Assembly (NCBI RefSeq): GCF_017744135.1
Contig: NZ_JAGHQU010000001.1
Location: forward strand, 124,001-188,000
Direction of reading: 5' to 3'
DNA: 64,000 nucleotides
From: Endozoicomonas sp. G2_2
GTDB taxonomy: Bacteria > Pseudomonadota > Gammaproteobacteria > Nevskiales > Salinisphaeraceae
Shown here: one piece after another, positions 41,879 to 49,909 of the stretch
Position numbering within the stretch: position 1 is the first letter of the stretch
How the letters are laid out: every line of letters starts with the position of its first letter
The notes under the pieces: generated by a model
Seen by the model: only the letters and a program-made list of their open reading frames with translations
What the model was told of the DNA's origin: nothing
Database searches by the model: none
Program-made: the position numbers and the translations under genes

Positions 41879-44089
41879 TCAGTCCCAGCGGTAGGTGATG
41901 CTGCCGAGCACGTTGCGCGGCAGGCCGTACTCGCAGAACGAGGACGCCTGTGCACCCGTGCAGTACACCTTCACATCATCGAACACATTGTTCGCCGACA
42001 GCTGCAACCGCACGTTGTCGAACTCGTAGCGTACGGCCGCATCGACGAGCGTGCTCGACGGGTAGCGGGCGGTGTTGTCCGCGTTCGAGAAAGACGAACT
42101 CGTGTAGCGCACGCCGGCCCCTACGCCGAGGCCTTTCAGCGCCGGTTGCTGGAAGTCGTAGTCGAACCATAGCTTGGCCAGATGATCCGGTCGGTTGACC
42201 ACGCGCTTGCCGTTGGTCGCCTGACTGCCGCCGGCCTCGATCACATCCACCTCGTTCCAGGTATAGCTCGCGAGCGCGCTCAGACCGCGCGTGATATCCA
42301 GCCGGGCGCCGAGTTCCACACCGCGGGAACGCGTCTCGCCGATCTGGCTGGGCACGGCGCTGTTGGGCATGGTCACGAGTTCGTTGTTGCGGCTGATTTC
42401 GAAGGCCGCGACCTCGAACGATGCGTTCCAGCTGACCGGGCGATAGCGCAGGCCGATCTCGTACTGTTCGCCGGTGATCGGGTCGTAGCCGGCGCCCGTG
42501 ACTTCGTTGGTCCCGTACTGGGGCGTGAACGATTCGCTGTAGCTGGCATAGGGTGCCAGACCGTTGTCGGCGAGATAGACCACGCCCGCGCGCCAGCTCA
42601 GATTGTCCTGATCGTTCTTGTCTTCACCGAGGGACTCTTCGTTCACCCAGTCCTGACGGGCGCCGAGCGTGAAGGCCCATTTGTCGCGGTATTTCAGGTG
42701 GTCCTGCACGTAGAGGCCGTACTGGTCGGCCTGCGTGCGGCTCGGGGTGAAGGTACTCGGCAGGCTGAAGTCCTGCGTGTAGTCCGGGTTGTATAGATCC
42801 AGCGGCGGGATATCGGTGGTCGGGTTGCCGAAACCGGAATTGCGGGAACGGTAATCCAGCGTCTTGTAGTCGAAGCCGGCCAGCAGGCTGTGCTCGAACG
42901 CGCCGTGGCGCACGTCGGCGACCAGCTGGTTGTCGGCCGTGATTGTTTCGCCTTCGTCGAAGCGCAGACGCGCATCACGTTCGAGTACGGTGAGGTCTTC
43001 ATTGAAAGGCGAGGCGGTGAAGTAGTTGCGGAATACGTCGACCACGTCGTAATCCACCTCGCGATAGCGCACGTTCTGGCGAAAGGTCAGATGGTCGCCG
43101 ACAAGCTGCTCGAACAGATACCCCACCGAGTAGGTTTCGGAACTGTAACCGGCCAGCCCCGGGATGCCGATATAGCGGTCGCGCGGGATACGGCGGCCGT
43201 CGTTGTCCCGTTTCGTGCCCTCCAGCGGGAACCCGGTCCAGTGGTAGTCGGATTCGTTCTTCTGATAATGGGCGAGCAGCGTGAGCTCGGTTCGTTCGCT
43301 GGGCGACCAGGTCAACGCCGGCGCCACGTAGACGCGATCGTCGTCGATGTATTCGATCGGCGCGTCGGCCTTCTGCACCAGCCCGGTCAGGCGATAGCGC
43401 CAGTGTCCGTTTTCGTCCAGTGCCTGGCTGACATCGCCCTTGAGCTGTTTCTGGCCGAAGCTGCCCAGTTCGAGCCCGACTTCGTGCAGCGGCGTATCGG
43501 TCGGGCGCTTGGTGACCAGGTTGATGATGCCGCCCGGCTGCCCCTGGCCGTAGAGCACGGAAGCCGGGCCGCGCAGCACTTCGATACGCTCCAGCCCGTA
43601 GGTCTCGATCGGCGCGTCGTAGGGCAGGCCCGAGAACATCCGGGTGCCGTCACGATAGGTGGCGTCCGAGGCCTGGAAGCCGCGGATAGTGATCCCGATC
43701 GAGTCGGTGACGTTATTGTTGAAGCGGTTGAGCACCGTGATTCCGGGGCTGTATTCCACCGCCTCGGTGAGCGTGTTGGCGTCGCGATCCTCGAGTTCGT
43801 CGCGGCCGATCACCGTGATCGCCTGGGGCGATTCGATCAGCGGGATATCGGTCTTGGTGGCCGTGGCGCTACGTTCGGCGACATAGCCCTCGACCGGGCT
43901 CCAGGCGCGGGCTTCCACCTGGTCGCCCTGAATATCGATCGGCCCGAGCGTGGTGGTGTCCGGCGTATTGCCTTGGCCAAACGCCGGGCCGCAGAGCGCG
44001 CTGGTTAGCAGCACCCACCACGTCGTTCGCGTGGGCGGCAAGGCAAAGGCGCTCGAACGTCGTCGATTCGCGGATCGCGGCTGGTGCAT
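41879..44089 (-). CDS. TonB-dependent siderophore receptor 2
   Basis: A 736-residue receptor of the FhuA/FpvA-like group. An N-terminal signal (helix TTWWVLLTSALCGPAFGQG) is followed by a plug with IESPQAITVIGRDELEDRDA, ITIRGFQASDATYRDGTRMF and RIEVLRGPASVLYGQGQPGG, and a barrel that ends CTGAQASSFCEYGLPRN..YRWD with the Cys pair seen in receptors 1 and 3. It lies last in a minus-strand run: receptor 3, PepSY reductase, receptor 2. A weak Fur-like site lies upstream. Confidence 0.92.
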   Translation of the reverse strand: MHQPRSANRRRSSAFALPPTRTTWWVLLTSALCGPAFGQGNTPDTTTLGPIDIQGDQVEARAWSPVEGYVAERSATATKTDIPLIESPQAITVIGRDELEDRDANTLTEAVEYSPGITVLNRFNNNVTDSIGITIRGFQASDATYRDGTRMFSGLPYDAPIETYGLERIEVLRGPASVLYGQGQPGGIINLVTKRPTDTPLHEVGLELGSFGQKQLKGDVSQALDENGHWRYRLTGLVQKADAPIEYIDDDRVYVAPALTWSPSERTELTLLAHYQKNESDYHWTGFPLEGTKRDNDGRRIPRDRYIGIPGLAGYSSETYSVGYLFEQLVGDHLTFRQNVRYREVDYDVVDVFRNYFTASPFNEDLTVLERDARLRFDEGETITADNQLVADVRHGAFEHSLLAGFDYKTLDYRSRNSGFGNPTTDIPPLDLYNPDYTQDFSLPSTFTPSRTQADQYGLYVQDHLKYRDKWAFTLGARQDWVNEESLGEDKNDQDNLSWRAGVVYLADNGLAPYASYSESFTPQYGTNEVTGAGYDPITGEQYEIGLRYRPVSWNASFEVAAFEISRNNELVTMPNSAVPSQIGETRSRGVELGARLDITRGLSALASYTWNEVDVIEAGGSQATNGKRVVNRPDHLAKLWFDYDFQQPALKGLGVGAGVRYTSSSFSNADNTARYPSSTLVDAAVRYEFDNVRLQLSANNVFDDVKVYCTGAQASSFCEYGLPRNVLGSITYRWD

Positions 44090-44196: not shown

Positions 44197-46734
44197 TCAG
44201 TAGACGTCCATGCGGATGCGCTGAGCCTCGTTCAGCGTCTCCACGGTCTTGGCGCCGAGTACGTCGACCAGCACGGCGGTTACGCCGGGCGCCATGCCGT
44301 CGTGGCTACCGCATACGAATATCGTGGCGCCAGCCGCTACCCATTCGCGCAGGCGCTCGGCCTGCGCGGCGAGTGCGGTCTGCACGTAGCGGCCGTCGTC
44401 GGCGTCGCGCGAGAAAGCCAGATCGATGTGGGCCAGCGCGCCGCTTGCCTGCCACGCGCCGATCTCGTCGTCGAAATAGAAATCCCGTGCGCGCTCGCGC
44501 TCGCCGAAGATCAGCCAGTTGGCGTGCTGGCCGTTATCGATACGCGCCTGTAGATGGCTGCGCAGGCCGGCGATGCCGGTGCCGTTGCCGATGAAGATGG
44601 CCGGCGCGGTGTCTATCGTGTCGTCGGCGCGGAAACCGGGGTTGGCGCGCAGCCGCACGTCGATCGACGTCTCGAGGGCGGCGTGTTCGATCAACCAGCC
44701 AGAGGCCAGTCCGGTGCCGTGCGCGTGGCGCGCCAGACGTACCACCAGCTCGACGCCGTCGCCCGTGTCGATATTGGCGATGGAATAGTCGCGTGCGGCG
44801 ATCGTCGGCCGTGCATCAAGCCAGGTCTGCAGATCGTCGTGGTCCGCGGGTGGCTGCGCGGGCAGCTGGCGATCGGCAAGCGCGGCGGCGAGCGGGGTGA
44901 CGGCTTCGCCGACGACCACAGGCGTTGTCGGATCGAGTTCGTGCGCGGCGAGCCAGGCCTCGATCTGCGTGGCGGCATGGCGCGGGCGGATCTCGACGAT
45001 ATCGCCGGCCTGCCAGGCGGCAGGCGAGCTGTCGTCGGGGTGCAGGCGCAGCCAGGCGGTCGGGCCGCCCAGACTTTCGGGGTTGAGAATACGGCGTTCG
45101 GCGAGCCGCCAGCGGGCGAATGCCGGTTCCGCCTTCACCGAGGCTACGCCGAACTGATGGGCCAGCGCGGCGTGCCAGTGATCGAGCGCGGCAGCGTCGG
45201 CCTTGTCGACCTCGATCGGCGTGAGCAGGGCCCGGGCGCCGCGTTCGCGCAGGGCGCGATCCAGGCGTCGACCGAAGGCGCAGTAGCTGTCGGCGTAGTC
45301 CGTATCCCCGAGAGCGAGCAGGGCATAGTCGAGCTGTTCCAGCCGTGGCTCGCCGGTGCCGCAGAAATGACGATCGAAACGCCGGGCGGCGACCGGCGCA
45401 TCGCCTTCACCGTGGGTGCTCACCACAAACAGCGCCTGGCGATGGGCGCCGAGACAGGCGGGCGTGAGCTCGCCCAGCGGCGTCATGCGCACGGCCACGC
45501 CACCCTGTTGCAGGGCGAGCGCGGTGTGGCTGGCGATACGCTGCGCAAGACCGCTCTGACTGGCGTAGGCCACGAGCAGCGCGTCGTCGCCGGCCGGCGC
45601 GCTGTCGGGCAGGCGCGGCGCGGGCGCGATCTGACGCTTCATGCGGCGCCGGCGCAGATAGAGCAGCCAGCCAGTGACGAAGAACACCGGCATGGCGAAA
45701 CTGGCGACCATCATGAGGGCGATGCCCGGCGTGCCGAAGAACGCGCCCATATGCAGCGCGTAGACGCTGGCCAGCAGCTTGTCGCCGGCGCTGTGATCGT
45801 CGAAGCGCTCGGCGCCGAGGATGGCCCCGGAGCCTGGGTGCACGAACAGCTCGTCGTCGGCGTATTCGTGCATCGCGTCGGCCGGCACATAGTGAATTTC
45901 GACCGGCGACGTGGGCTCGTCCGGCAGGCGGATGAACACCGAGCGCGCATCAGCCATCTGCGGCGCGATGCTCGGCCAGACGCGGGCCATGTCCGGCGTG
46001 TCGACCGGCGAGGACAACGTGGGGTGGGGGGCGTGCGCGCCGGAGGCGAACAGGGCCTTCGCGCCGTCGCGATACCAGTCGAAGGACCACCACAGCCCGG
46101 TCAGCGACGCCAGGAGATAGGCGACGAGAGCCCAGAGGCCGAGAACCGCATGCCATTCGCCGGCCAGCTTGCCGCCGAGAGCGCGCGGCCAGAGCCAGCG
46201 CCAGCCCTGGCGCGGGCGACGTTGCCAGCGGATATACAGCCCGGTCACGGACAACAGGATCAGCGTGATCGTCGAGACGCCGACGATGAACTTGCCGGTT
46301 TCGCCGGCGGCCAGGCGCTGATGAATCTGGCGAATCAGCCCGAAGGTCCACTGGCCGCGCGGCATGGCCATCGGCTCGGCCGTGAACGGATCGAGCAGCG
46401 CACGTTCACCCCGCCGACCCGTGGTTTCCGGTGTACGATAGCCGAGCAGAAATGGGTAGGGGCGATCCTGACGCCAGTACAGGCTGGATACGCTGTGATC
46501 CGGGTGGGCGCTGCGGTAGCGGGTGATGATGTCCTGCGGCAGCAGCCGGGTGCGATCCGATTCGAGATGCTGCACCGTTTCCGCGTTGAGCCATTCCAGA
46601 ATGTCCTGCTGGAACGACATCAGTCCGCCGGTGATGCCGATGACCACGAGTACGGTGCCGGCGGTGATGCCGAGCAACCAGTGGAGCTGGAAGATCGGGC
46701 TGAAGGCGCGCAGGCGTTGCACGAACGAGTTCAC
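44197..46734 (-). CDS. PepSY-membrane / flavodoxin / FNR fusion reductase
   Basis: An 845-residue three-part protein. Residues 1-375 form a PepSY_TM module with four membrane helices (first at FQLHWLLGITAGTVLVVIGI) and conserved His (QIHQRL, EWHAVLG, YALHMGAFFG). Residues about 383-520 are a flavodoxin domain (VAYASQSGLAQRIA, VVSTHGEGDAP, LALGDTDYADSYCAFG). Residues about 545-845 are an FNR-like FAD/NADPH reductase (AIFIGNGTGIAGLRSHL, FGERERARDF, FVCGS), as in CysJ. It would pass NADPH electrons through FAD, FMN and heme or quinone across the inner membrane, most plausibly to ferric siderophores. The GTG 46734 overlaps the stop of a short leader ORF. It sits between two siderophore receptors behind a Fur box. 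Confidence 0.88.
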   Translation of the reverse strand: MNSFVQRLRAFSPIFQLHWLLGITAGTVLVVIGITGGLMSFQQDILEWLNAETVQHLESDRTRLLPQDIITRYRSAHPDHSVSSLYWRQDRPYPFLLGYRTPETTGRRGERALLDPFTAEPMAMPRGQWTFGLIRQIHQRLAAGETGKFIVGVSTITLILLSVTGLYIRWQRRPRQGWRWLWPRALGGKLAGEWHAVLGLWALVAYLLASLTGLWWSFDWYRDGAKALFASGAHAPHPTLSSPVDTPDMARVWPSIAPQMADARSVFIRLPDEPTSPVEIHYVPADAMHEYADDELFVHPGSGAILGAERFDDHSAGDKLLASVYALHMGAFFGTPGIALMMVASFAMPVFFVTGWLLYLRRRRMKRQIAPAPRLPDSAPAGDDALLVAYASQSGLAQRIASHTALALQQGGVAVRMTPLGELTPACLGAHRQALFVVSTHGEGDAPVAARRFDRHFCGTGEPRLEQLDYALLALGDTDYADSYCAFGRRLDRALRERGARALLTPIEVDKADAAALDHWHAALAHQFGVASVKAEPAFARWRLAERRILNPESLGGPTAWLRLHPDDSSPAAWQAGDIVEIRPRHAATQIEAWLAAHELDPTTPVVVGEAVTPLAAALADRQLPAQPPADHDDLQTWLDARPTIAARDYSIANIDTGDGVELVVRLARHAHGTGLASGWLIEHAALETSIDVRLRANPGFRADDTIDTAPAIFIGNGTGIAGLRSHLQARIDNGQHANWLIFGERERARDFYFDDEIGAWQASGALAHIDLAFSRDADDGRYVQTALAAQAERLREWVAAGATIFVCGSHDGMAPGVTAVLVDVLGAKTVETLNEAQRIRMDVY

Positions 46735-46772
46735 GAGCCACACCGTGCGGCGTGCAATGACGACTTGCGCAT
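46731..46772 (-). CDS. Candidate 13-codon leader ORF of the PepSY reductase
   Basis: Reads MRKSSLHAARCGS. GGGGGA lies four bases before its ATG, whereas the reductase GTG has no good site of its own. Its stop TGA overlaps that GTG as GTGA, so translation of the leader could deliver ribosomes to the reductase. Expression unproven. Confidence 0.4.
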   Translation of the reverse strand: MRKSSLHAARCGS

Positions 46773-46826
46773 TCTGTCCCCCTGGGCAGGCTGGCGCCTG
46801 CGGTGCCTGTTCGACACCCGTCACGG

Positions 46827-46852
46827 AAAAAAACGCGGCCCGCAGGCCGCGT
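46827..46852 (-). terminator. Terminator-like hairpin in the reductase leader (attenuator?)
   Basis: On the minus strand ACGCGGCC-TGCG-GGCCGCGT is a perfect 8-bp stem followed by TTTTTT. It lies between the Fur box and the reductase gene, so if transcription starts at the Fur-box promoter this is in the leader. Confidence 0.6.
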
Positions 46853-46880
46853 AATTCCACCGAGAGTGAAGGTTTCCCTC

Positions 46881-46927
46881 CATTCGCATTCGCGTCGGAG
46901 AGTCGATGCGAATGCGAATGATTCTCA
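46881..46927. promoter_or_regulatory. Fur box and 13-bp inverted repeat before the PepSY reductase
   Basis: TGCGAAT-G-ATTCTCA (46913-46927) is a good Fur site beside an AT-rich -10-like stretch (46928-46942). CATTCGCATTCGC (46881-46893) and its exact complement (46908-46920) form a 13-bp inverted repeat with a 14-base loop, so the Fur half-site sequence is mirrored 27 bases away. Confidence 0.7.
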
Positions 46928-47020
46928 GTTTATATAAATAACGCCGGTTTGCAAGGGCCGCCAGTCAGGCGGGCGCTTCTCGACCGGTGCCGGCGGTGCG
47001 ATGGCGCTTGTTTCGCGCAT

Positions 47021-47046
47021 AAAAAAGCGGCCCAGCAGGGCCGCTT
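47021..47046 (-). terminator. Intrinsic terminator of receptor 3
   Basis: On the minus strand AAGCGGCCC-TGCT-GGGCCGCTT, a perfect 9-bp stem, runs into a T tract. It lies 21 bases after the receptor stop and separates it from the reductase promoter. Confidence 0.85.
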
Positions 47047-47066
47047 GAAGGCATGGCTGCGCCGTA

Positions 47067-49286
47067 CTATTGCCAGCGATAACTGACGGTTGCGGTCGTC
47101 TCCCGCCCGTAGCCGTAGAAGCAGAACGCGGCGCTGGAACAGGATGAGACATATTTCTTGTCGAACACGTTCTGTACGTTCAGCCCGACACGCCAACCCG
47201 CATAGGCCGGATCCAGCCCGCCGAGCTCGTAGTGCAGCGCCGCGTCGGCGACCGTGTAGTCGGGGACCTGCAGGTCGTTGTTGTTGGTGACCTGCTGTTC
47301 GCCGACATAGCGCACGCCGATGCCGCCGCCCGCGCCTTTCCAGGCGCCGTCGGGCTGGGTGTAGTCGAGCCAGAGCGAGGCCGTGTAGTCGGGCGTGCGC
47401 TGGTACTCGTTGCCCTGGGTACCGTCCTCGGCACTGCGTATTTCGGAATCCAGATACGCGGCGGCAAGCGACAGATCCAGCCCGCCGACGAGACTGGCCT
47501 TGCCGTCGATCTCGAAGCCGCGAACCTGAACCTCGCCGGTCTGCGAGCGCGTACCGTCCGGCTGCAGCGCGCCGGTGACGTTGCTCTGCGTCAATTCGAA
47601 TGCCGATACGGTGACCAGTGCATCCACGCCGCGTGGCTGATATTTCACGCCGGCTTCGTACTGTTCGCCCTCCGTCGGGTCGAGCACGTCGTTGCGCACA
47701 CCGCTGGTGGCCGGCGACTGAAAGGATTCGGTGTAGCTGACAAAAGGCGCGATGCCGTTGTCGAAGGCATACAGTGCGCCGAGCCGGCCGGTAAAGGCGC
47801 GGTCGGTGCGCGTATCGCGATTCGCGTCGTCCGGGCCGACGGCCGTGGTGTCGATCACGTCGTAGCGCCCGCCGGCCAGCATGGTGAGTCGGCCGAACCG
47901 GGCCTGGTCCTGGACATAGAAGCCGATCTGGTCCTGGTCGAACTCGAACCGGTCGCGATCAATGGCAGGAATCGACTGGCTGTGGTCAGGATTGGCAATT
48001 GACAGCGGTGGCGGTGCGGCCGCGTCGCCTGGCCGGGCCAGACCATAGTAGCGATCGGCATCCAGATTCTGATAATCGAAGCCGGCTAGCACCGTATGCT
48101 CGACGGGCCCGGTATCGACATAGCCCAGCATCTGATTATCGATCAGGATGCCATTGACGTTTTCCTGCGATGCAGCCGTGCCACGATTGAGCGCCGTGGA
48201 GTCGCCGCTCAGCCCAGCGCCATAAACGCTGCGGTAGTCGACCTCGGCGTCGCGAAAACGGAAGTTCTGGCGAAATTGCAGGCTGTCGTTGAACCAGTGC
48301 GAGAACTCGTAGCCGAGCTGGACCGTCTTGCGGTCGAAGCTTTCGAAGTTCTCGTCACCGTCGTAGAAGTCGCGCGGCAGTTTGCTGCCGTCGGGCAGCG
48401 GGTCGACCGTGCCCTGATACGGCAGAGCGCCGTAGGCGCCCGAGTCCGGGTCGTTCCGGTACTTGGCCAGCAGCGTGAGCTCGGTCTGCTCGGATAGCCG
48501 CAGGCGCAGCGACGGCGCGATCGAGAAGTTGGCGGTGTCGACCGTCTTTTGGGGGCCGTCGCGCCGGGTCCCGGTGGCCACAACGCGATAAAGCGCGTCG
48601 CCCTGTTCATCCAGTTTGCCGCCAATATCGAAACCCGCGCCGGCTCGGCTGTCGTTGCCGGTTTCCAGATAGAACTCGTTGACCTGCTCTTCCGTGGGGC
48701 GCTTGGATACCAGGTTGATCAGGCCGCCCGGTGGCGTCTGGCCATAGAGCACCGAGGCCGGTCCTTTCACCACTTCGACGCGTTCGAGCAGGTAGGGATC
48801 GGTCTTGGGAATCGTATAGAAATAGCCGAGCTGCTTGAGGCCGTCCAGATAGGTGTCGGGTTGAAAACCGCGTAGCGTGAGCTGGTCGTAGCGGCTGGCG
48901 ACGTTGCCGCGAAGTTCGGGCACCACGCCCGATACATAACGCAGCACCTGACGAATGTCGCGCGCGTTCTGAGCCTCGATCTGGTCGGATGCGATCACCG
49001 ACACGGACTGCGGCGTCTCGGCCAGTGATGCATCCGTCTTGGTCGCCGAGCGCGCGCGTTCGGCGACATAGCCCTCGACCGGCCCGGTCGCCGTCTCGAC
49101 CCGGGTTTCGCCTTCCACCTCGATCGGCGCCAGGGTTCCGGATGCCGTGTCGGTGCGGTTATTGTCCTGTGCGATGGCCACGCCCGTGCACAACAGACTG
49201 GCGGCCATCGTCGAGAGCAGTCGCCCCGCGGGCGCACAGCCGAGCGCATACGAAGCACGTGCTGCAGGCGGTAAATAATGACGCAC
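47067..49286 (-). CDS. TonB-dependent siderophore receptor 3
   Basis: A 739-residue receptor starting at GTG 49286 with GGGGGGA seven bases upstream; the 62-residue longer frame crosses the Fur box and is rejected. A signal peptide (LLSTMAASLLCTGVAIAQDN) is followed by a plug with ETPQSVSVIASDQIEAQNAR, LTLRGFQPDTYLDGLKQL and ERVEVVKGPASVLYGQTPPG, and a barrel ending SSCSSAAFCFYGYGRET...YRWQ. The TATGPVEGYVAERARSATKT segment before the plug closely resembles the same region in receptor 2, suggesting a recent common origin. It has its own terminator. Confidence 0.92.
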   Translation of the reverse strand: MRHYLPPAARASYALGCAPAGRLLSTMAASLLCTGVAIAQDNNRTDTASGTLAPIEVEGETRVETATGPVEGYVAERARSATKTDASLAETPQSVSVIASDQIEAQNARDIRQVLRYVSGVVPELRGNVASRYDQLTLRGFQPDTYLDGLKQLGYFYTIPKTDPYLLERVEVVKGPASVLYGQTPPGGLINLVSKRPTEEQVNEFYLETGNDSRAGAGFDIGGKLDEQGDALYRVVATGTRRDGPQKTVDTANFSIAPSLRLRLSEQTELTLLAKYRNDPDSGAYGALPYQGTVDPLPDGSKLPRDFYDGDENFESFDRKTVQLGYEFSHWFNDSLQFRQNFRFRDAEVDYRSVYGAGLSGDSTALNRGTAASQENVNGILIDNQMLGYVDTGPVEHTVLAGFDYQNLDADRYYGLARPGDAAAPPPLSIANPDHSQSIPAIDRDRFEFDQDQIGFYVQDQARFGRLTMLAGGRYDVIDTTAVGPDDANRDTRTDRAFTGRLGALYAFDNGIAPFVSYTESFQSPATSGVRNDVLDPTEGEQYEAGVKYQPRGVDALVTVSAFELTQSNVTGALQPDGTRSQTGEVQVRGFEIDGKASLVGGLDLSLAAAYLDSEIRSAEDGTQGNEYQRTPDYTASLWLDYTQPDGAWKGAGGGIGVRYVGEQQVTNNNDLQVPDYTVADAALHYELGGLDPAYAGWRVGLNVQNVFDKKYVSSCSSAAFCFYGYGRETTATVSYRWQ

Positions 49287-49332
49287 GAATGATCCCCCCA
49301 AGGAAAATGGACGCGGCGATGCGTCCGTTCTT

Positions 49333-49353
49333 AATTGAGAACGATTCTCAATT
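49333..49353. promoter_or_regulatory. Fur box upstream of receptor 3
   Basis: AATTGAGAAC-G-ATTCTCAATT is a near-perfect palindrome around the 7-1-7 core TGAGAAC-G-ATTCTCA, 47 bases before the receptor start. It may also affect the divergent lipoprotein gene. Confidence 0.85.
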
Positions 49354-49444
49354 CTATTGACGCAGTGCCGGCGTGTACACCCGCGCGACTGACGCTCGGC
49401 GGGTAAACCGCTACCATCGGCGATAAATCCTCCAGAGACACCCC

Positions 49445-49909
49445 ATGCAGCCTGTTTCCTTCTGCGGCGCAACCGCTGTTTGCGCCGGGCGCCATGCCGG
49501 GCTCGCGGCCGTGTTGATTGCGGTGATCGGCCTGGCCGGCTGCGGCAGCGACGACTCCGGCGAGACGGCCCCGCAAGCCGATAGCAGCGCGGCCGCGGAT
49601 TCGGCGCAGACGGGCGAGTTCGCCAACGCGCAGATCATCCGCGATCGCGTCGCGGGCAATACGGTCACCGGTACGATGTCGCCCGACAGCGCCTACACCG
49701 AGTTCTATGCCGAGGACGGGTCGATTCACGGCGCCAGCTACGAGGCGCGCTGGACGATCCAGGACGACCAGATGTGCTTCGACTACGACGAAGCGCCGGA
49801 GATCGACTGCTATCGGGTGAAGATCGATGGTGACTCGGTCGAGTGGCATCGCCAGGATGAAGTGCAGGGCAAGGGCACGCTCGTGGAGGGCAACCCGAAC
49901 AACTTCTAG
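49445..49909 (+). CDS. Hypothetical lipoprotein
   Basis: A 154-residue protein with a lipoprotein signal (LIAVIGLAGC, lipobox LAGC) followed by a Ser/Ala/Asp-rich linker. The globular part contains GNTVTGTMSPDSAYTEFYAE and ARWTIQDDQMCFDYDEAPEI with DCYRV, giving two Cys likely to pair. This pattern (G-N-T-x-x-G...Y-x-x-x-G...W.i.d..lC...C) occurs in small uncharacterised periplasmic proteins. Residue +2 is Gly, so sorting to the outer membrane is expected. Divergent from receptor 3, with the Fur box between. Function unknown. Confidence 0.75.
   Translation: MQPVSFCGATAVCAGRHAGLAAVLIAVIGLAGCGSDDSGETAPQADSSAAADSAQTGEFANAQIIRDRVAGNTVTGTMSPDSAYTEFYAEDGSIHGASYEARWTIQDDQMCFDYDEAPEIDCYRVKIDGDSVEWHRQDEVQGKGTLVEGNPNNF

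Follow-up and report, generated by a model that had tools for sequence, protein, structure and literature searches.

As far as the cited part of PMC9410917 goes, iron-sparing small RNAs (sRNAs) have arisen repeatedly without a common sequence or synteny; all those discussed there target the aconitase mRNA, and they resemble IsrR in neither sequence nor genomic context (synteny). There are also sRNAs that lie upstream of open reading frames (ORFs) whose expression requires read-through of the sRNA terminator, such as SgrS–setA, and termination at SgrS and RyhB increases under stress (PMC6582626, in the section used here). Here, we describe a leader that may join both features. It precedes the gene of a PepSY reductase on the minus strand of a 64,000-nt window (the whole stretch of DNA analyzed) of contig NZ_JAGHQU010000001.1 from Endozoicomonas sp. 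G2_2 (GCF_017744135.1), a genome of 3.73 Mb that we assign to the genus Salinisphaera and call G000. With a probability of about 0.7, we read this leader as a Fur-repressed iron-sparing sRNA that also serves the reductase operon as a leader subject to termination. Aconitase (AcnA) and other iron-using enzymes are probably turned down by the predicted sRNA, and leak-through past its terminator probably yields the reductase.

By analogy, the leader RNA is best read as working like RyhB or PrrF and as being arranged like SgrS–setA. With RyhB of the enterobacteria and PrrF1/2 of Pseudomonas it shares a predicted Fur-type promoter, a predicted length of ~100 nt, and a terminator of its own. We take yagT to be the same gene as paoA. 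The predicted targets, acnA and a paoA-like gene, are also alike, as acnA and yagT are both tabulated among the genes that RyhB represses in Escherichia coli (PMC4666370, excerpted part). The leader RNA differs from both sRNAs in that it has no Rfam match, has another seed, heads a reductase operon, and occurs in one Salinisphaera clade only. Its likeness to SgrS–setA is one of position: an sRNA lies upstream of a same-strand ORF that is reached by read-through, as described in the relevant section of PMC6582626 and as predicted here. However, the leader RNA would respond to iron rather than to sugar-phosphate stress, and the next gene is the PepSY reductase with an overlapping mini-ORF. BrrF of Burkholderia cenocepacia is comparable as an iron-sparing sRNA that is tied to, and coexpressed with, the Fur-controlled hemP and has aconitase among its predicted targets; according to the same excerpt (PMC7377471), BrrF lies downstream of hemP and has no Fur box of its own, whereas the leader RNA is 5′ and has a Fur-like box at its promoter. 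Keyword searches of the open-licence literature turned up no earlier description of such an sRNA in Salinisphaera or of sRNA read-through to an iron-regulated gene, and the element would add an iron-sparing sRNA in this genus.

A predicted terminated RNA in the reductase leader

A full-length reductase gene is present in seven of 14 Salinisphaera genomes (G000, G003, G004, G005, G007, G011, and G012), and the element lies directly upstream of it in all seven. The order of the parts (promoter, hairpin, terminator, and mini-ORF) is the same throughout, and the leader thereby passes the check set by the preliminary description of the window, for which a leader not conserved in close relatives would have spoken against it. 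Named loci with a reductase of 69–71% identity belong to S. orenii, S. halophila, S. sp. UBA6602, and S. shabanensis; the Stenotrophomonas reductase has ~40% identity. The genus assignment of G000 rests on these relatives. In a tree built from acnA (its first 762 nt; 531 nt in G007) and bfr (489 nt), the seven element-bearing genomes form one clade with a support of 0.986. An RNA model built from six leaders (those of G011 and G012 near-identical, that of G004 not used) gave E values of 1e-32 to 4e-27 in its six source genomes and 1.9e-11 in G004. The best match in the other seven genus genomes was at the level of the background (1.6e-4, 26.3 bits), and no convincing copy outside the reductase leader appeared in the genus search. 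Matches in 85 genomes of the order reached at most 26.5 bits and were taken, after a few had been inspected, as terminator look-alikes.

The predicted promoter (46954–46927, minus strand) has a spacing of 16 nt, and its hexamers match at eight of 12 positions; a generic promoter scanner returned no site above its cut-off at this place. The pattern of −35, 16 nt, and −10, composed after the sequences had been seen, occurs a single time in each examined region of all seven genomes, always at the corresponding position. Fur boxes follow a 7-1-7 consensus. The Fur-like box overlaps the −10/+1 region in the seven genomes, and Fur binding is predicted from its sequence; it is the sole zero-mismatch site in G000 for the pattern TGMGAATNATTCKCATTYGCA, which was derived from this very box. 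The 13-bp inverted repeat noted in the preliminary description is indeed perfect, and a second computation gave arms of 17 nt with 94% complementarity. The predicted promoter places transcription initiation at the base of the inverted repeat, and a portion of the Fur operator would then be transcribed into the 5′ arm of a hairpin in the RNA.

The 5′ arm of this hairpin overlaps the Fur box, and the 3′ arm varies by species but remains complementary. The hairpin alone was equaled by 0–11 of 1000 shuffles in each of the seven genomes, and by 0–23 of 1000 when the first 17 nt (the Fur half) were held constant. It could be argued that the inverted repeat is an extended Fur operator with no role in RNA, lying between an ordinary promoter and a partial terminator whose constitutive read-through sets the reductase level. 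In G000 and G011/G012, the 3′ arm is made of Fur-like GCGAAT units, as this explanation would have it. It also draws on the simpler leaders seen by eye in 13 inspected of 25 Stenotrophomonas-group loci, which have no terminator–mini-ORF unit, and in two order relatives that have the reductase gene without the element unit; the unit is thus dispensable elsewhere. However, the 3′ arm in G003, G005, G007, and G004 is not Fur-like and nevertheless retains its pairing, and the conservation of the core exceeds what a terminator needs, which makes this a very unlikely account of the locus.

The predicted RNA opens with the hairpin, continues through a core of little structure, and closes with an intrinsic terminator, and so has the form of a short structured RNA with its own terminator (Table 1). 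Mean identities among G000, G003, G005, and G011, computed against shuffled controls, single out the core and terminator as the best conserved noncoding segment (0.82, or 0.70 with G004). The corresponding values are 0.63 for the promoter, 0.52 for the hairpin, 0.49 after the terminator, 0.41 for the 60 nt upstream of the promoter (shuffled control 0.36), and 0.77 for the first 150 nt of the reductase gene. The fold of 46931–46828 has −56.2 kcal/mol and z = −9.4, with none of 200 dinucleotide shuffles equal to it. Across genomes, z was −7.3 in G000 (46826–46922), −3.3 in G003, −4.9 in G004, −3.7 in G005, and −4.7 in G011. The seed varies between species (CUC, CAC-UC, and AUC). The terminator hairpin was found in all seven genomes; one T of the run is paired in the stem in the window, G004 has six T, and five of the seven have an interrupted TCTTTT. 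The RNA polymerase pause consensus consists of GG, six bases, and TGYG. It is resembled by GGTGGAATTACG (46850–46861, minus), directly before the terminator stem, and its best fit is the G004 counterpart GGTGGAATTGCG; a pause at this point could set read-through.

Table 1 Features of the reductase leader and operon in the window
Feature	Position	Strand	Remarks
−35 hexamer TTGCAA	46954–46949	minus	TTGC.. 16 nt from −10 in 7/7 genomes
−10 hexamer TAAACT	46932–46927	minus	TATAAT, TAAAAT, or CATAAT in relatives
Fur-like box TGAGAATcATTCGCA	46927–46913	minus	putative Fur site, from sequence
Predicted sRNA/terminated leader RNA, ~94 nt	46827–46920	minus	start inferred from −10, end from T run; conserved block
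5′ hairpin, perfect 13-bp inverted repeat	arms 46920–46908 and 46893–46881	minus	span 46881–46920
Core CCUUCA	46867–46872	minus	CUUC(A) predicted to pair with acnA Shine-Dalgarno GGAG (G000, G005); CUCC in G011/G012
Seed CUCGGUGGA	46856–46864	minus	complementary to leaders of acnA and paoA-like gene
Intrinsic terminator	46852–46827	minus	8-bp stem 46852–46833; 7 T at 46833–46827
Shine-Dalgarno-like AGGGGGA of mini-ORF	46783–46777	minus	G-rich stretch ahead of mini-ORF in 7/7
Mini-ORF MRKSSLHAARCGS, 13 codons	ATG 46772 to TGA 46731	minus	GTGA overlap with reductase start
Reductase, 845 aa	44197–46734	minus	GTG start 46734; Pfam PepSY_TM, flavodoxin, NAD-binding; N termini align from this start
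Terminator of upstream TonB-dependent receptor gene	47046–47025	minus	

The AT-rich Fur-type promoter, the Fur box, the inverted repeat, and the 8-bp stem with its T tract, all named in the preliminary description, are present in the window and conserved in the clade. That description had further held that the terminator would stop most transcripts from the Fur promoter unless something prevents it; a terminator that must be passed on the way to the reductase is supported, and its hairpin was found in all seven genomes. Over the 65 nt that follow the terminator, the best σ70-like pair matches at only 5–7 of 12 positions, versus 8–9 for the leader promoter in the seven genomes, which leaves read-through as the sole evident way to the reductase.

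The same facts would suit a leader that acts only in cis, in which a regulated terminator responding to a protein, a small molecule, or an RNA tunes read-through and the short RNA is a by-product. The element is always linked to the reductase, even in G004, where no receptor gene was recognized by eye in the 1.5 kb upstream; the conserved core could serve as a binding site, and the weaker T run in five of the seven genomes would permit read-through. However, a riboswitch or a leader-peptide attenuator would call for an antiterminator fold or a translated ORF over the terminator, and neither appeared. No antiterminator fold was seen in the leader models, in which the terminator folds by itself, and single-base insertions in the core disrupt any common frame, so that a leader-peptide ORF across the terminator is out. 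An Rfam covariance search of 46400–47300, covering families to which we assume RyhB and PrrF to belong, gave three matches with E up to 1, all under the gathering cut-off and none to an iron sRNA. A purely cis-acting attenuator also leaves the complementary sites in the acnA and paoA-like leaders unexplained, and we consider it unlikely. The two-level switch proposed in the preliminary description fares accordingly in part: its Fur-type promoter, terminator, and overlapping ORF stand, whereas nothing shows a switch at the terminator, given the missing antiterminator fold and a core that pairs with the downstream mRNA no better than shuffles do. A leader that is also an sRNA is thus best preferred over such a switch alone.

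Complementarity of the core to the acnA leader

The core segment CUCGGUGG is complementary to the acnA leader in all seven element-bearing genomes, with one G–U pair in G004. Each of these acnA leaders contains YCACYGAGTGTYTTT followed by GGAGA, although the search pattern had caught only two of them. A site of this type is missing from the acnA leaders of all seven element-free genus genomes, whose leaders differ (a second aconitase-like gene of G002 and G008 was left out of the comparison). No other part of the acnA leader is as well conserved within the clade as the YCACYGAGTGTYTTT block. With their own cores, the seven acnA leaders form 8–10 contiguous Watson-Crick pairs (8–11 including G–U), a length reached by 0.15–5.4% of shuffled leaders. 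The pairing predicted at the Shine-Dalgarno sequence, listed for four genomes in Table 1, is limited to CC with GG in G003 and G007.

The acnA pairing was also compared with that of other genes, using a crude gene caller for the gene starts. None of the 39 genes of the window attains the nine pairs of acnA with the G000 core. Nine pairs are reached by five of 330 genes on contig C22 of G000, including acnA, and by three of 321 on contig C11, none of them via CUCGGUGG. A search of G000, G003, G005, and G007 for CACCGAG followed by GGA and ATG at start-like spacing gave 132 sites, which were clustered as strings at an ungapped identity of at least 75%. Thirteen string groups occurred in at least two genomes, and two were common to all four, namely the acnA leader and a string within an open frame (TEWDGRYVM, G005) that is presumably rfaD. 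As a separate observation, the acnA Shine-Dalgarno region of the element-free G001, G009, G010, and G013 has GGAGATAAGGTTC, a near-complement of AACCUUCAUCUC, which is another part of the core in G003, G005, and G007.

The paoA-like gene and other candidate targets

By seed as well as by energy, the top of the 330 genes on the 400 kb of C22 is the gene of a paoA-like [2Fe-2S] subunit, which matches the core with 11 Watson-Crick pairs and one G–U at −28.7 kcal/mol. Its product of 224 residues has Fer2 and Fer2_2 domains and is nearest to PaoA, yet stays under the model cut-off (220 of 322 bits). Orthologs were located by synteny in G003, G004, and G012, where stretches were taken, and all three, none of which had been used for selection, have a CCACCGA site (four of four with G000). 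The G003 site TCCACCGAG forms nine pairs, with one of 94 genes equal and none better; nine genes are as good or better by energy. The G012 site TCCACCGAGTG forms 11 pairs with its own CACUCGGUGGA and beats all 144 genes by both measures. The G004 site CCACCGAT forms eight pairs with its own AUCGGUGG, a number reached by 11 of 82 genes, and only one of the 82 is better than its energy of −29.8. In G012 and G004, the flank of the site tracks the altered seed. As no paoA homolog was found in 400 kb of the element-free G008, the paoA-like gene is without a negative control. Conserved base-pairing with leaders of iron-using enzymes is therefore predicted for acnA in seven of seven genomes and for the paoA-like gene in four of four.

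The pattern WTCCACCGAKW, complementary to a portion of the core, gave 96 sites in the seven element-bearing genomes, six of them the element itself. Sixty of the 90 others were inspected with their flanks, including 11 of the 13 in G011 and none from G007 or G012. Ten of the 60 lay near an ORF start in a crude test, several doubtfully; the ten included aconitase and bacterioferritin (bfr) in G000 and, in G005, again the acnA leader. Both genes were then traced in all 14 genus genomes. A TRAP transporter gene has nine pairs in G000 and no such site in its G012 ortholog and was dropped, showing that chance matches do occur. An AlaA-like gene, for which the sequence stretches examined held no ortholog, and other single-genome sites were likewise not kept.

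These results bear on a further explanation, in which the matches between seed and targets reflect chance and common descent, and acnA and the paoA-like gene are not targets, whether or not the leader is an sRNA. All the genomes concerned belong to one clade, the energies are weak, five of 330 genes reach nine pairs, and the TRAP transporter match is not conserved. Chance does not readily explain, however, why the acnA leader is conserved most strongly, within the clade, at this block, why the site recurs in all three paoA-like orthologs outside the selection, or why acnA and the paoA-like counterpart are both listed under RyhB in E. coli (PMC4666370, table portion). We regard this explanation as unlikely, though not negligible; its weight and that of the cis-acting attenuator overlap, because the leader might also be an sRNA that acts on other genes.

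Two minor observations concern further genes. With the strict pattern, just two of the four genomes, G003 and G007, have CACCGAG immediately ahead of the aceE start (pyruvate dehydrogenase E1), and this is a lead. A weak Fur-like site (three mismatches) lies ~380 nt before bacterioferritin in G000 (C5:68457).

Proposed mechanism and its weight

When iron is short, Fur would leave the operator and RNA polymerase would start near 46920. Many transcripts would stop at the terminator and give the sRNA of ~94 nt, whose core would pair with the acnA and paoA-like leaders, either close to the Shine-Dalgarno sequence or farther upstream, and lower their translation. Some polymerases would pass the terminator and yield a mini-ORF–reductase mRNA, from which the reductase may be translated by reinitiation from the overlapping mini-ORF. 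The conserved core, together with its complementarity to the two leaders, favors a termination event whose product is an RNA functional in trans, read-through giving the second product. An sRNA that doubles as a leader would explain why the core and the terminator are conserved and the mini-ORF is loose, and would also explain the target sites.

Several points weigh against it. Duplex energies are weak evidence by themselves, and those of acnA (−19.6 to −23.4) lie just 1.2–2.1 sd beyond shuffled cores. The G005 core gives −16.1 to −21.8 with element-free acnA leaders, which overlaps the real pairs, and forms eight contiguous pairs at the Shine-Dalgarno region with acnA of the element-free G006 and G008; the strongest energy in the duplex table, −27.6, belongs to bfr of the element-free G009. 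By energy, acnA is 17th of the 330 genes on C22, and with their own cores it is tied or beaten by 13 genes in G003, 29 in G004, and 15 in G012; its seed is tied or beaten by four of 94 genes in G003 and 11 of 82 in G004, and by none of 144 in G012. In G004, most of the seed is hidden within a hairpin of the RNA (unpaired 0.10), and the target site in acnA is unpaired at only 0.27. The target search was partial and post hoc, and bfr was dropped as a target, as its site occurs in G000 only among the seven. The co-occurrence of element and reductase counts as one event, given the single clade. Finally, Hfq-dependent sRNAs are expected to have an uninterrupted U tail of seven or more (PMC6582626, in the portion cited), for which the interrupted T run in five of the seven genomes is poor.

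A fuller version of the proposal, which we hold tentatively and at slightly less than even odds, is that in one Salinisphaera clade a siderophore-reductase operon has the iron-sparing sRNA itself as its terminated leader. A single Fur promoter and a single terminator would then give both sparing (acnA, the paoA-like gene, and others) and acquisition, with terminator efficiency setting their ratio; the Fur operator would be reused as a stabilizing 5′ hairpin, and relatives without the reductase would lack the sRNA and spare iron otherwise. If so, acquisition and sparing would be tied to one promoter, with the terminator as divider. This suggests a possible origin of such sRNAs, in which the leader of a Fur-controlled uptake gene turns into a terminated transcript. 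As the seed varies by species and the paoA-like site varies along with it, direct pairing is testable by swapping.

Mini-ORF, reductase, and neighboring genes

The 13-codon ORF with its ribosome site and the GTGA overlap with the reductase, as first described from the window, are present, and the mini-ORF overlaps the reductase start in all seven genomes, by 4 nt in six and by 10 nt in G004. Its length is 13–44 codons across the seven (37–44 in the relatives). Only the overlap is kept: the sequence has an identity of 0.29 against a shuffled control of 0.26, and the 13-residue peptide, searched as a doubled sequence, has no Pfam match. A frameshift joining the two frames is unnecessary, as the reductase N termini align from GTG/ATG starts. 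Another coupled upstream ORF is found in uof–fur. The mini-ORF resembles uof–pqsR in that it is short and may, when translated, promote expression of the gene that follows (PMC8395346, as excerpted). It is unlike the uof type in that coupling is suggested by the overlap, and no sRNA site was found at the mini-ORF. CruR of Bordetella (DUF2946) also heads an operon with a PepSY_TM gene, preceding a TonB receptor gene and the PepSY_TM gene; within the passages used from PMC9426467, however, its 145 residues include CXXC and RAPP motifs, and it acts via Rho in response to copper. The mini-ORF was not kept as a CruR-type ORF, as DUF2946 with CXXC and RAPP was not found in these short, unconserved frames.

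On the minus strand, a TonB-dependent receptor gene lies upstream of the leader (47067–49472, ending at 47067) and a second one lies at 41879–44089, so that receptors stand on both sides of the reductase. In the first codons of the mini-ORF at three loci (L002, L003, and L006), a hairpin (ACGTCC/GGGACG, ACGCCA/TGGCG) seems, by eye, to be kept by paired changes.

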